The position numbers were made by a program, and so were the translations under genes. This document shows, piece by piece, positions 1,894-52,381 of a DNA stretch of 64,000 nt (position 1 is the stretch's first letter; the number at the start of each line of letters is the position of its first letter). A model generated the notes under the pieces. It was given only the letters and a program-made list of their open reading frames with translations. It made no database searches and was not told the DNA's origin. Source of the DNA: Desulfofustis limnaeus (GTDB taxonomy: Bacteria > Desulfobacterota > Desulfobulbia > Desulfobulbales > Desulfocapsaceae); the NCBI RefSeq assembly GCF_023169885.1, contig NZ_AP025516.1, forward strand, positions 1,883,501-1,947,500. The letters run 5' to 3'.

Positions 1894-4074
1894 TTAGACG
1901 AACCCATAGTGGCGCAGGCCATCGACGATCCCGGCGGCATACGGCTCAGGGCTGAAGTAGATATTCGGCGTACCCCGCAGGTGCTCCAGTTCCTCGCTGT
2001 GGTTGCCGACCACCAACCCCCGGGTGCGTCCCTGGATCATATCGGCGTCGTTGCCCGAGTCACCGGCAACCATGATATGCCGCGGTGAAAAATCATATTT
2101 CTGGATCAGGTACTCGATGGCCTTTCCCTTTGAGGCACGCAGCGGCAGGATATCGAGAAACTGACCGTGGGAATAGATCACCTGGCAGCGGAGCCGCACC
2201 GCTTCCAGGGCATCGTAGACCCGCTGCAGCCGGCCGTCCTTTTCTTCCAGATAGTAGCTGATCTTGTGGCTGCGCTGTCCCTCCGCCTCCTGGGAAACGA
2301 GAAAGTCCAGGGCGGCCAGCGCCTTTTTGATCGCCTCGGCCTGCCACTGCCACGAGATGTGCTGCTGCCATCCCTTGTCCATGCGAAAATCGGGCCCGTA
2401 ATAGATCTCCGTCCCGACCGAGCAGATCATGATATCGGGGGTTGGGAAATTGTATTCCGTCATCACCTCGATGGTCAGCTCCAGGCTCCGGCCGGTGGCC
2501 ACCCCCCAGGCCAGCGCGTCGCGCTTCTCCTCCAGCAGGGCGAAGAGGCGGTTCATGGCAGGGTCGTCACCAACCAGGGTGTTGTCGATGTCGGTGATCA
2601 ACAGGTGGCGGACGTTGGTCAGGCGACGTCCGAACGAAGGCCGGCCGTTGCCGTATTCCCCGGCGAGACCCGGCGCATCCGGCTCCTGATCCGGGAGCAG
2701 CCGTTTTACCGCCTCCAGGTATCTTTCACAATGGGCGCGCCAGGAATAATGGGAACGGACGCCGTTGATGCCGTTGTTGGAAAACATCGTCCATTGTTGC
2801 TTATCGAGCAGGATGGTTTTTATGGCCGTCGCGATCTGGATCGAGTCGGTCGCGTCAACCAGGATGCCGTTGCTGCAATTGGCGACGATATCCCGCGGGC
2901 CGCCGTCATCGGTGGCCACGATCGGCACCCCGCAGGCGGACGCCTCGATCAGCGTCAAACCAAAGGGTTCGACGAGTGCCGGATTGACGAATACCCCGCC
3001 GCTTTGGGCACATAAACGATAAAGCTCAGGAACCTCCGTAGCAAAATCGTGCCGTTTCGGGATGGCTAGTTTGCCATACAGGTCATAGCGATCCATATGC
3101 AACAGCATGTCGGTCAGCACCGCTTTTTCGTTTTCTTCCATCTCCACGATGTTGCTACGGATACCGGCGAAGATGGCGAGGTTGGCCACCGCCCGCAGTT
3201 CCTTGTCGTTCCCGTAGGCGTTGATCAGTCCGGCTATGTTTTTTCGATGATCGGGGCGACACAGGGCGAGAATGAAGGGCTTTTCGGGAACCATCCAGAA
3301 ACGGTGCAATTCCTTCAACAGGGTGGTTCGTATCTGTTTCACCTCGTCGCTGAACAGCTCCGGATCGAACTGAATGTCGTAATAGGGGTAAAAGGCCTCC
3401 AGGTCGAGGCCGGGAGCTATGACCTCCGGAGGCGCCTGCGGGGTGTTGCGATACAAACCGTACTGCTCCTCGATTTCCTGTTGCGTCGAGACAACTATCA
3501 TATCGGCGGCCTCGATGATTCGCTCTTCCCGATCGATGCGCAAACCGATCTTGTACTGGCTTTCCATCTTCGCCTTTTTCAGACCGTCGGCGATCAATTT
3601 GTTTCGCTTGTTTCTGCCCAGGCTATGCCCGGTAAAGACGAACGGCACATCGAAAGCGGCGGCAATTTCCATGGCCACGTAACCGGCATCGGCATAGTGA
3701 CCGTGGACCAGATCGGGCGTCCGCCCCTGTTTGGTGATGAAGGTGATGGTGTTGTCGACGAACTCTTCGAGATGGGGCCACAGCAGTTCCTTGCGCACAT
3801 ATTTTTTTCCCCCGCACGGCAACCGAACCAACTGCGCCTTGTCGCTGATGATTTCGAACGGCACGGCATAATCCGACGATAAACGACGATCATCGATCAA
3901 CCGCGTCAACAGGTCGACACGACCGACCTGCTCCACGTCACCAAGGGACTTGGCCAGTTCGAGGACGTATTTCACCTGTCCGCCGGTATCGGCATCTCGC
4001 CCCAGCTCCGGACTGCTGCTGCGGACAAGGCCGTGGATGCTGATATGCATGATATACAAACCATCTTTGTGCAT
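1894..4074 (-). CDS. Sucrose-phosphate synthase with C-terminal phosphatase domain
   Basis: Makes sucrose-6-phosphate from UDP-glucose and fructose-6-phosphate. The first ~450 residues are a GT4 synthase domain: MISIHGL-like start, DADTGGQVKYVLELA sugar-binding loop, VHGHYADAGY, and the EX7E pair in VEPFGLTLIEAS. The last ~240 residues are a HAD-IIB sucrose-phosphatase-like domain with nucleophile motif DIDNTLVGDD and metal motif AGDSGNDADM intact, so the protein may carry out both steps to free sucrose. I chose the ATG at 4074 because GGAG (4083-4086 on the plus strand as ctcc) lies 8 nt upstream; a longer ATG at 4107 has no clear ribosome site. The ~380-nt upstream region has a possible TAGAAT -10 (plus strand 4282-4287) but a poor -35. 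Confidence 0.93.
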   Translation of the reverse strand: MHKDGLYIMHISIHGLVRSSSPELGRDADTGGQVKYVLELAKSLGDVEQVGRVDLLTRLIDDRRLSSDYAVPFEIISDKAQLVRLPCGGKKYVRKELLWPHLEEFVDNTITFITKQGRTPDLVHGHYADAGYVAMEIAAAFDVPFVFTGHSLGRNKRNKLIADGLKKAKMESQYKIGLRIDREERIIEAADMIVVSTQQEIEEQYGLYRNTPQAPPEVIAPGLDLEAFYPYYDIQFDPELFSDEVKQIRTTLLKELHRFWMVPEKPFILALCRPDHRKNIAGLINAYGNDKELRAVANLAIFAGIRSNIVEMEENEKAVLTDMLLHMDRYDLYGKLAIPKRHDFATEVPELYRLCAQSGGVFVNPALVEPFGLTLIEASACGVPIVATDDGGPRDIVANCSNGILVDATDSIQIATAIKTILLDKQQWTMFSNNGINGVRSHYSWRAHCERYLEAVKRLLPDQEPDAPGLAGEYGNGRPSFGRRLTNVRHLLITDIDNTLVGDDPAMNRLFALLEEKRDALAWGVATGRSLELTIEVMTEYNFPTPDIMICSVGTEIYYGPDFRMDKGWQQHISWQWQAEAIKKALAALDFLVSQEAEGQRSHKISYYLEEKDGRLQRVYDALEAVRLRCQVIYSHGQFLDILPLRASKGKAIEYLIQKYDFSPRHIMVAGDSGNDADMIQGRTRGLVVGNHSEELEHLRGTPNIYFSPEPYAAGIVDGLRHYGFV

Positions 4075-4459
4075 GGTGCGGTCTCCGATCGAAATGGTGG
4101 CAGGCATGCCCTGGTAAACGGCTACCTGCCGCTCACCGGTCTTCTCGATGGCAGATCGAGCCGGGCCTGCCCGAAGATTGCCTGTTTCGTCGGCAGAACT
4201 GCGGGAACTGCGGGGATCATGGGAAACTCAATGCCGGTGTGCTCTGTCATGCAGCTCCTCGCACGGCACTACCGCTGAATAATTCTAGTGCATAAGGACG
4301 GTTAATGCCAGTCTCATATGCCCCTCCAGCCGGTCAACGGATCGACGCCCCGACTCTCCACACGGAAAAACCACGGCCTCACCGGGCGCCACCCCTCTGC
4401 GGATGCGGTAGAATCGCCGCACTGGCTTTCGCAGCGACGTTTGCCTCAGGAGGTTCAGA
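4075..4459. other. Intergenic region upstream of sps and of a small divergent gene
   Basis: I see no convincing gene here; the short frames are low-similarity by-products of GC-rich sequence. It must hold the promoter for the sucrose-phosphate synthase gene (minus strand) and for the small gene at 4460 (plus strand). TAGAAT-like -10 boxes occur at 4282-4287 (minus) and 4409-4414 (plus), neither with a good -35. Confidence 0.4.
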
Positions 4460-4825: not shown

Positions 4826-5041
4826 GCCGTCAAGCACTCCTTTTTTCGGCATCAGCATCCCGATCATTTCTCATCCCGCGCTCGCCGCTGTCGGAACCGA
4901 TCTCGACGCTAAGCGAGCCCTTGTTCCACGAGAGAAGGTTCATCCGGAATGAGCCTGCTTTTTTAATTTACCGGCAAAGAGCCCGGCGACGGGCATCGCT
5001 TCCAAACGCTGCTCTTCGGCCTGATCACCGTCACGCCACGG

Positions 5042-5074
5042 CTGACAGACAGGCCATCCATGGCCTGCTGTCAG
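5042..5074. other. Perfect inverted repeat 1 inside repeat copy A
   Basis: CTGACAG...CTGTCAG flank an inner AGGCCAT...ATGGCCT pair with a two-base centre, giving a long nearly continuous stem. The corresponding part of copy B is much less symmetrical. Confidence 0.7.
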
Positions 5075-5097
5075 TTGCGGACGTCCTGTCCGCAACC
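5075..5097. other. Perfect inverted repeat 2 inside repeat copy A
   Basis: GTTGCGGAC and GTCCGCAAC form a 9-bp stem around a 5-nt loop, immediately after the first hairpin. There is no T tract on either side, so it does not look like a terminator. Copy B has lost this symmetry. Confidence 0.7.
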
Positions 5098-5131
5098 CTG
5101 CGGGCCTGCTATGGCGAGCCGGCGGGCCTCC

Positions 5132-5393
5132 GCGAGGCGTTTTCCAGCAATACCCGTCGCCTCCTGGGCAGCCGATGAGTACGTTCAATCCGGATGGACC
5201 AAAAAAAAACACCGCTCGCAGAAAAAAAAATAATGGTTGTGAAACAAATCTAACCAGACGGTATTAATAATATTTCTTAAAAAGATCATCAATTTATCAG
5301 GCTAAACTACGTATAAATACCTATTTACAGCGCCTCTGCCGATAAGTAATAGTGAAGACATAGAAGAACCTGTGATGACGTCGGGAGGGGTCC
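5132..5393. other. AT-rich intergenic region
   Basis: From about 5200 the sequence is strikingly AT-rich for this window, with runs of A at 5201-5210 and 5221-5230. No gene is seen. It probably carries the promoter of the small gene at 5394; a GTATAAATA -10-like box lies near 5310, with no clear -35. Confidence 0.4.
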
Positions 5394-5802: not shown

Positions 5803-7581
5803 TCAGAACGGCCAGACATGGGGAATGAGCAAAGTGCCAAGTACCACCACCAGAAGGTTGAGCGGGATGCCCAAACGGAGATAATCGACGAAACGATAGC
5901 CGCCGGGTCCGTAGACCATCAGGTTCGTCTGGTAGCCGATCGGCGATGCGAAGCAGGCGCTGGCACCGATACAGACCCCGATGATGAATGGTTTGGGATC
6001 GACGCTGAGACCGACGGCCGTGGAGACGGCGATGGGCAAGAGAAGGACGGCGGCGGCGTTGTTGCTCAATATCTGCGTGGCAACGCTGGTCAGGACGATG
6101 ATGCCGGCCAGGACCACCGAGGGAGACATGCCGCTGAACAGGCTCAGGAAGGCTTCCGCGTAAAGACGACTGGCCCCGGTCGATTCCATGGCCATGCCAA
6201 GAGCGATGGTGGCGGCAATCAGCAACAGGACGTCGGCCTGCAGAGCGCGATAGGCGTCGCGCACCTGCAGGCAGCCGGTAACAATCATCAGAAAGGCTGC
6301 CGTCAAGGCACAAGTCATGATATCGGCGATACCGAGTGCGGCGGTGCCGATCATGCAGACAAAATTGATGATCGCCCACCATGCCTTTCTTTTGTGTACC
6401 AGTTCCTGATAGACATCCTCGATGATCAAATAGTCCGTATCGCCTCGTAATTCCTCGAGCTTTGAGCCAGAACACCAGATCAATAGGATATCGCCGGTCT
6501 GCAGGCGGACATCGTGGAGCTGTCGTTCGGAGAGTCGCAGCGCCTGCCGCCTAACGGCAATGAGATGGATGCCGGAGTCTCTGGCCAGATCGGTCTCCGC
6601 CAGGCGCTGGCGGCGGGCGGACGAACCGGGGGGGATCAACAACTCCACGACAATGGGGGCATCCTTCTGGGCGCCAAGGGCCAGGTCCTTTTCCGATGTG
6701 GGGAGTTCCACGCCTTCCTCGTGAAGCAGCGCCACCAAGTCGTTGGGTGAGCCCTTGACCAGCAGGATATCGTCCGCCCCGATGTTTTTTCCGTCCCGCC
6801 CGGGACGAAAGATCCGATCACCACTGGCCACCTCGATCACCTCGAGACCGGGAAAACGCTCCGCGAACACCGACTGTGCCGGTTTGCCGATCACCTTGCT
6901 GGTGGCGCGGATCTGCAACTCAGCCAGGTATTGCCGATGATCGCTGTCCTGCAATCGGCAGACGGGGTTGGCCAGCGCCGGCAACAGCCGCGGCGCAGCG
7001 ACCAACAGGAAGATAATGCCGAGCAGGGCGATGGGCACCCCGATGGTCGACAACTCGAACATGGAGAGCGCGCCGTGACCGTACTGGTCGCTCAAATCAC
7101 TGATGATGATATTCGTGGAGGTACCGATCAGGGTGCAGGTCCCGGCCAGGATGGAAGCGTATGACACGGGGATCAAAAATCTCGACGGACTGAGCCCAAG
7201 TTCGCAGCACATGGCCATGACCACCGGGATGAACAGCACCACAATCGGCGTGTTATTAATGAAGGCCGAAGCAAATGCGACGGAGAAGAGAATGAGGGCC
7301 TGCGCCGCCACCACGTTTTTCTGGGCGACCTTGATCACTTGCCGGCCGAGAAATTCGACGCCGCCGGTACGCATCAACCCCTTGCTGACCACAAACATCG
7401 CCGCCACCGTGACCACCGCCGGATTGGCAATACCGGAGACCGCCTGCTGAGGGGTCAACAGGCCGGAAACCACCAACGCCACCATGATCCCGATGGCGGT
7501 GAGATCAACGGAGATCTTCTCGGTAATGAGCAGATAGAAAACCACCACCAGGAGCAGGGAAATCATCCATACATCCATCAC
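5803..7581 (-). CDS. SLC13/DASS-type anion transporter with two TrkA-C domains
   Basis: Inner-membrane carrier of the divalent-anion:Na+ symporter superfamily, in the SAC1-like branch that includes sulfate transporters. About 210 residues of membrane helices, with the substrate/ion motifs FINNTPIVVLFIPV and GTCTLIGTSTN, are followed by two cytoplasmic TrkA-C (RCK_C) regulatory domains (roughly residues 215-390), then a second helix bundle with LSNNAAAVLLLPIA and SPIGYQTNLMVYGPGGY. The two-inverted-half design with SNT-like motifs in both halves is complete at 592 residues. In a putative sulfate reducer sulfate is an attractive substrate, but sequence alone does not separate sulfate from dicarboxylates. 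It appears monocistronic. Confidence 0.88.
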   Translation of the reverse strand: MMDVWMISLLLVVVFYLLITEKISVDLTAIGIMVALVVSGLLTPQQAVSGIANPAVVTVAAMFVVSKGLMRTGGVEFLGRQVIKVAQKNVVAAQALILFSVAFASAFINNTPIVVLFIPVVMAMCCELGLSPSRFLIPVSYASILAGTCTLIGTSTNIIISDLSDQYGHGALSMFELSTIGVPIALLGIIFLLVAAPRLLPALANPVCRLQDSDHRQYLAELQIRATSKVIGKPAQSVFAERFPGLEVIEVASGDRIFRPGRDGKNIGADDILLVKGSPNDLVALLHEEGVELPTSEKDLALGAQKDAPIVVELLIPPGSSARRQRLAETDLARDSGIHLIAVRRQALRLSERQLHDVRLQTGDILLIWCSGSKLEELRGDTDYLIIEDVYQELVHKRKAWWAIINFVCMIGTAALGIADIMTCALTAAFLMIVTGCLQVRDAYRALQADVLLLIAATIALGMAMESTGASRLYAEAFLSLFSGMSPSVVLAGIIVLTSVATQILSNNAAAVLLLPIAVSTAVGLSVDPKPFIIGVCIGASACFASPIGYQTNLMVYGPGGYRFVDYLRLGIPLNLLVVVLGTLLIPHVWPF

Positions 7582-52130: not shown

Positions 52131-52330
52131 CAGTAGGCCGCCGGGGAACCATAGCAGGCCGGAAAGGTTGCGGGCAGGAGGGGTACGAATGACAGCAGGC
52201 CAGGAGCGGCCCGTCGGTCAGCCGTACGGTGACGGCGATGGTGACGAAGAGCAGCAGGAGCAGCGTGTGGAAGCGATGTCCGTCGCCGGGTTCTGTGCCG
52301 GTAACTCAAAAAAGTACGCTCATCCCGGAT
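52131..52330 (-). repeat. Dispersed repeat, copy B
   Basis: 200 bp, inverted relative to copy A (4941-5131) and alignable throughout with one 9-nt block (about 52243-52251) that copy A lacks. It lies in the gene-free 435-nt gap between the sulfotransferase and a GT2 gene of the glycan cluster. The hairpin arms that are perfect in copy A are broken here. An uninterrupted frame across it exists on the minus strand but has no recognised protein. Confidence 0.75.
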
Positions 52331-52381
52331 GAGCCCACACGGTGATTGCGCCACGATGAGTTTGGTTGAAATGGTACTTTT

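Follow-up and report, generated by a model that had tools for sequence, protein, structure and literature searches.

The dispersed repeat analysed here, from the genome of Desulfofustis limnaeus, is probably a 264-bp MITE with ISL3-type ends and a TwoAYGGAY-like core, whose two GGA hairpins, if transcribed, are both predicted to bind CsrA. Two copies lie in the window, the stretch of 64,000 nt of NZ_AP025516.1 that was analysed; the genome (G000) is a single contig of 4,232,141 bases. The element type, a MITE with ISL3-type ends, is a known one, and what is unusual is its TwoAYGGAY-like cargo. Comparison of the sequences shows inverted ends, 8-bp target duplications, about fifty copies, a nested insertion, core-less siblings and insertion sequences in relatives, as well as covarying stems, conserved GGA loops and both orientations of the core on scattered branches of a tree. 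Plasmids, phages and viral contigs held no match to the element, and no account of it was found in the open-licence literature searched.

The preliminary description had reported two intergenic stretches in opposite orientation, whose homology is borne out by blastn (75.8% over 198 bp, E 6e-37) and by a local alignment score of 179, where 300 shuffles reached 32 at most. The 9-nt block that distinguishes them is present, and both copies are intergenic relative to the predicted genes. Both stretches are thus real, but their boundaries required revision: copy 1 is larger at both ends and occupies positions 4937–5200 (plus strand) as a complete element, whereas copy 2 (52138–52335, minus strand) is decayed and has lost one end. 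Terminal repeats had been thought absent; copy 1 nevertheless has 22-bp inverted ends at 4937–4958 (the left or A end, plus strand; G000:1888437-1888458, 3 mismatches to the end pattern) and at 5179–5200 (the right end, minus strand; G000:1888679-1888700, 2 mismatches). Copy 2 retains one such end at 52314–52335 (G000:1935814-1935835, minus strand, 2 mismatches). The hairpin core of copy 1 (4985–5161) is bounded by inverted arms and is the segment found inverted in some other copies. Within it, the covariance model R1 matches positions 5018–5106 on the minus strand with 112.2 bits, copy 1 being among the 31 sequences from which R1 was built; in copy 2 the core on the GGA strand (52157–52245, plus strand) scores 44.8 bits.

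In the vicinity of copy 1, genes lie on the minus strand at 5803–7581 and 1894–4107; among the genes nearby, one resembles a CitMHS-type transporter with a TrkA_C domain and one a sucrose-phosphate synthase/phosphatase fusion. A second dispersed repeat, GATTGCGCMACGATGAGWTT, directly adjoins copy 2 (52344–52366, plus strand, 1 mismatch) and also occurs near other copies (L033, L047, L053, L173 and others); it is exact in 13 of 296 loci, some of which overlap.

The supposed restriction to two copies does not hold. A blastn search of the D. limnaeus genome with copy 1 returned at least 48 matches at at least 40 places (40 of 101 first-look candidates scored), and R1 returned at least 54 matches (E ≤ 0.01) at at least 53 places, copy 2 included; two of the matches lie on opposite strands of one place, and the R1 count is a lower bound, as scoring covered 150 of 3981 first-look candidates. 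A complete element measures 264 bp (GGTTCATCCGGATTGAGCGTAC...GTACGCTTGAGTCGGATGAACC) and its 22-bp inverted ends begin GGTTCATCCG. With up to 3 mismatches allowed, the end pattern is found at 95 sites in this genome and its reversed-pattern control at none. A script applied to 56 sequences recovered a pair of ends in 38. In 18 of these 38 elements the flanking 8-mers agree at no fewer than 7 of 8 positions (in 7 elements at all 8), as opposed to 1.3% of cross-pairs, and the length of exact flanking duplications peaks at 8, which indicates an 8-bp target duplication in the family. The flanks of copy 1 are alike at 4 of 8 positions, so that its own duplication is unrecognisable.

Direct evidence of insertion is provided by the locus L083 (G000:1809900-1812200), where a core-carrying MITE lies within a shorter MITE and is flanked by CTTTTTTG on either side. 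At this locus the core-carrying MITE has itself been broken up by a further insertion sequence, whose transposase (454 aa) is of the DDE_Tnp_1 type, giving nested insertions. A pair of terminal inverted repeats 1997 bp apart (G000:1810031-1812027) was rejected as a candidate, since it corresponds to this nested pair of MITEs, which an unrelated insertion sequence interrupts. Core-less siblings of about 80 bp (L092, L095 and L096) consist of the same two ends joined at CCGG; in the 264-bp form the core occupies this junction and is flanked by CCGG-like bases, an arrangement that fits either insertion of the core or its precise loss. Elements of 131–133 bp look like internal deletions. The mobile part is short and non-coding, has terminal inverted repeats, a duplication of fixed length (8 bp) and many copies, and shares its ends with autonomous elements; it is almost certainly a MITE with ISL3-type ends. 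The repeat, whose type had been left open, is accordingly classed as such a MITE with a hairpin core, and the suggestion of a non-autonomous mobile element is vindicated by the inverted ends, the target duplications and the many copies.

Exact matches to the pattern GGTTCATCCGNNTNNNGC are present in 36 of the family's 93 genomes searched, D. limnaeus included. Two relatives carry insertion sequences with the ends of the MITE, 1253 and 1314 bp apart, and with 8-bp duplications (ATAAATAG and TGATTTTT, respectively). The 1314-bp element (L279) encodes an intact transposase of 403 aa assigned to PF01610 (DDE_Tnp_ISL3; 264 bits, E 1.8e-78), and combines what is expected of an ISL3 parent, namely a DDE_Tnp_ISL3 transposase between MITE-type ends and an 8-bp duplication. 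End-pattern and transposase searches of the D. limnaeus genome found no helper with the MITE's ends. Its eight ISL3 genes, which show 30% identity to the L279 transposase, were considered as helpers and rejected: the two copies compared have different ends (GGCTCTTCGTCG), and the end GGYTCATC is present at none of the three loci read for it. In a second genome of the same genus (G001), a transposase remnant 66% identical to that of L279 contains two internal stop codons. As the two ISL3 copies compared in D. limnaeus carry other ends and G001 has this broken remnant, the helper appears to have been lost from the D. limnaeus genome. The element resembles ISL3-family insertion sequences and their derived MITEs in its ends (GGTTCATCCG..GCGTACTTT) and its 8-bp duplications; unlike the insertion sequences, the 264-bp form contains no transposase gene, and its hairpin module is not seen in them. 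In a further genome (G112) there is a MITE of about 220 bp (L281 and L282) whose ISL3-type ends are the same but whose interior is different.

The core comprises about 177 bp and in other genera is found without MITE ends. A search of 97 genomes (own included) with the full element, in which up to 7 candidates were scored per genome, gave matches in at least 5; outside the genus inner parts alone match, and the core there lies in a cloverleaf-like fold of about 200 bp with other ends. R1 matched 59 times in G001, 16 times in G051, 5 times in G003 and once in G019 (some of these being the reverse strand at the same place), with 0 matches in G053. D. limnaeus also holds five free-standing copies (L172–L175 and L206). 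Most of the 42 free-standing copies examined (45 were listed, 3 of them too near a sequence end) have an end like GGGCTGGCCGG, and about five differ. Several copies (L174, L206, L172, L186 and L196) show well-paired, copy-specific outer stems, as if they stood at the tips of different palindromes; the idea that these stems record insertions into the tips of hairpins was dropped because most free-standing copies have the GGGCTGGCCGG-like end.

The core is very likely akin to TwoAYGGAY (RF01731). At E ≤ 5 this family matched 7 of 10 submitted loci (best 42.8 bits, E 9e-4), with no match in L023 (a D. limnaeus copy), L118 or L135. At E ≤ 0.01 it matched 4 of 97 genomes (own included), 2 of them above the cut-off, and none of 14 control genomes. 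Ten of these matches lie in D. limnaeus, the best of which (44.5 bits) is a free-standing copy and exceeds the gathering cut-off of 43 bits. The window copies do not reach this value: the TwoAYGGAY-like stretch of copy 1 (5038–5100, minus strand) scores 31.9 bits (E 0.0026 in a search of 351 bases, E 0.0073 when the whole genome is searched), for copy 2 Rfam gives no match at E ≤ 5, and at gathering score Rfam identifies one tRNA and nothing else in the window. The MITE copies among the matches listed score 31.6–32.0 bits. The motif CAGACAGGCCATCCNTGGCCTG also occurs in other repeats of Nevskia and Lysobacter, and RF01731 matched 3 of the 6 genomes reached through it, namely two Nevskia MAGs with 4 matches apiece (up to 53.9 bits) and a Lysobacter with 1. 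Repeats of a Nevskia MAG (L118, L131, L150 and others) contain the same kind of GGA-loop hairpin, and L118 has a weak match to RsmW (28.9 bits, E 0.39), a family of the same Rfam clan as TwoAYGGAY.

The core shares with TwoAYGGAY a pair of adjacent hairpins, their order, and the strand that carries their GGA loops. In copy 1, hairpin C (5042–5074, minus strand) has the loop AUGGAU at 5056–5061 and hairpin B (5075–5095, minus strand) the loop AGGAC at 5083–5087, both in minus-strand reading; compared with AYGGAY, the latter is one base short. An AGGGAY hexaloop is found in hairpin B in 6 of 46 rows from other genomes. Apart from this shorter loop, the element differs from TwoAYGGAY in the listed MITE copies falling below the cut-off, in its dozens of dispersed copies and in its range, here the Desulfobulbaceae, as opposed to the human gut, gamma-Proteobacteria and Clostridiales given for TwoAYGGAY in a table of PMC2864571.

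The structure was assessed on the sequences behind R1, 19 from D. limnaeus and 12 from relatives. Over these 31 sequences and 24 pairs, 97.8% of the cells are paired, compared with 19–42% when the structure is slid. Both sides have changed in 9 of the 24 pairs (36 such cells), a result as high as which was seen in 0 of 500 shuffles; a measure of further pair types did not rise above the shuffles (221 of 500 reach it). In a 99-row alignment (98 sources, 116 matches, best match per locus, both window copies retained), hairpin C shows ANGGAN in 88 rows and hairpin B carries GGA in its loop in 85, mostly as a 5-base loop. Such paired GGA hairpin loops are what is looked for in a CsrA-binding RNA, and the preliminary suggestion of an RNA seems to point in the right direction, as the modelled hairpin module appears RNA-like.

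A different reading takes the core as a mere DNA palindrome, REP-like and cruciform-forming, that rides on the MITE, its GGA loops being a by-product and any RNA remaining unbound. This reading has close to an even chance. Within 46 D. limnaeus copies, a set without the free-standing five and without L207 and L209, GGA cells of both loops have changed in 7 of 257 cases, fewer than stem cells (127 of 2144, p 0.03) and far fewer than other unpaired bases (188 of 1374); since the copies are related, these tallies are counts rather than independent events. The N of ANGGAN, by comparison, is free to vary and departs from the majority base in 27 of the 46 copies. Both patterns speak against a simple palindrome, as does the fact that the core matches an RNA family which occurs in other groups too. 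The balance of G-U and A-C cells would indicate the strand that folds as RNA. Over all rows G-U cells outnumber A-C cells 84 to 30, and the ratio is 51 to 6 for rows from outside the D. limnaeus genome; within it the numbers are 33 to 24 (p 0.29), a lack of strand polarity that would suit a palindrome; because about half of the G-U cells come from a single pair common to 44 rows, the polarity was not counted as evidence. The long, well-paired outer stems of free-standing copies likewise favour a palindrome.

The same reading gains from the repeated flipping of the core. Among 40 copies typed for the orientation of the core relative to the ends, 30 are one way, 9 are inverted and 1 is ambiguous. 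A tree was built from 36 cores, leaving aside W2, L058, L057 and the ambiguous copy L043. The inverted cores are scattered over it, requiring at least 7 changes, of which 3 or more are forced by well-supported branches, and a single clade of inverted cores is rejected (p-AU 0.0003); the scatter is similar to that of shuffled labels (mean 8.2). The support values of this tree are approximate, and flipping could be mimicked by gene conversion among the copies. As judged from these sequences, the core seems to have reversed its orientation within the ends on more than one occasion, and exchange through its inverted arms is a plausible route.

REP and BIME sequences are dispersed, palindromic, intergenic repeats. 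The element shares these three properties, and differs from them in its 8-bp duplications and ISL3-type ends. The D. limnaeus genome contains 11 Y1 transposase genes. They form sets of 5 and 6 with equal scores, a pattern like that of multi-copy insertion sequences; a REP/RAYT system would call for a single-copy RAYT-type Y1 gene next to the repeats.

Gene context bears on both the palindrome and a less probable reading, in which the copies are ordinary 3' ends, either terminators or mRNA stabilisers, of their neighbour genes. According to a home-made gene caller, the 53 copies of D. limnaeus comprise 24 tandem, 14 divergent and 13 convergent sites, with 2 left unassigned, a distribution that argues against 3' ends. 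The gene upstream has the direction of the GGA strand in 24 cases and the opposite direction in 27; this absence of orientation bias accords with a palindrome, and the even orientation suggests that many copies may be neutral passengers. Four of the five free-standing copies of D. limnaeus are convergent, which favours 3' ends. The 40 free-standing copies of two relatives (G001 and G051) comprise 20 tandem, 9 convergent and 4 divergent sites, plus 7 unassigned, and in 23 of 33 the upstream gene lies along the GGA strand, a figure in favour of 3' ends that is inflated by the convergent sites, which score as the same strand whichever their orientation. Restricted to the informative tandem sites, 14 of 20 lie along the GGA strand by hand count (binomial about 0.12). 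Near copy 1, promoter-like sites are not beyond chance, and the sole terminator-like match lies at the left end, outside the core and within chance expectation. Taken with these observations, the 3'-end reading is improbable.

The preliminary description had also noted a third-codon-position signal and proposed a short cysteine-containing peptide, past or present. In 34 of 40 copies its HRF frame does run through 45 codons without a stop, a length at which open frames are frequent in GC-rich DNA. In the window pair the signal is weak (6, 7 and 10 differences by codon position), and over 38 copies it vanishes (167, 150 and 169, or substitution rates of 0.074, 0.067 and 0.075); in addition, of 26 indels 24 would shift the reading frame, which leaves a peptide very unlikely. 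A simple old duplication of a single intergenic stretch, which had been put forward in case just two copies existed, with none in relatives and no conserved ends, agrees with the two copies seen in the window itself and has practically no standing beside the at least 53 places, the inverted ends and the target duplications.

For the MITE with a TwoAYGGAY-like core, the following course of events is proposed. An ISL3 transposase, once supplied in trans, may have moved the MITE, the helper later having been lost from the D. limnaeus genome. The copies examined in two relatives take the form of a free-standing, cloverleaf-like repeat; such a repeat would have come into the middle of the roughly 80-bp MITE and then have multiplied there as cargo, and the core would flip through recombination between its own inverted arms. 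Read-through transcripts on the GGA strand are predicted to expose CsrA sites, by which scattered copies may become local CsrA-binding or decoy elements.

Binding of the core hairpins by CsrA, of which the D. limnaeus genome encodes one gene, is a plausible but tentative prediction. In the accessible text of PMC4333381, TwoAYGGAY is proposed as a CsrA-binding sRNA with a predicted function, and that of the Rfam 12.0 paper (PMC4383904) describes CsrA-type sites as short GGA hairpins that are generally paired. The core resembles the decoy RNAs CsrB, RsmY and RsmZ in its paired hairpins with GGA loops, as far as these are covered there (PMC4333381; PMC4383904), and is unlike them in being mobile and multi-copy, with two sites per copy and putative transcription. 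No work joining CsrA/RsmA GGA sites with a MITE, a REP or a deltaproteobacterial sRNA sponge was found in the open-licence literature searched. It is conceivable, if rather unlikely, that transposition has strewn some fifty mobile CsrA decoy sites and that the flipping module re-wires CsrA activity or target genes. On this reading TwoAYGGAY, so far seen as a candidate CsrA-binding sRNA, would be a mobile hairpin module of the Desulfobulbaceae, hitchhiking on an ISL3 MITE and setting a paired CsrA site beside dozens of genes.

With about fifty natural copies whose loops contain fixed and free positions, the CsrA question is testable. If the hairpins do not bind CsrA, the published CsrA reading of TwoAYGGAY would need a second look, because high-copy palindromic repeats would then yield the same motif. 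If they do, transposition would be a route for spreading post-transcriptional control sites, and the TwoAYGGAY family would have to be regarded as both a mobile repeat and an sRNA.
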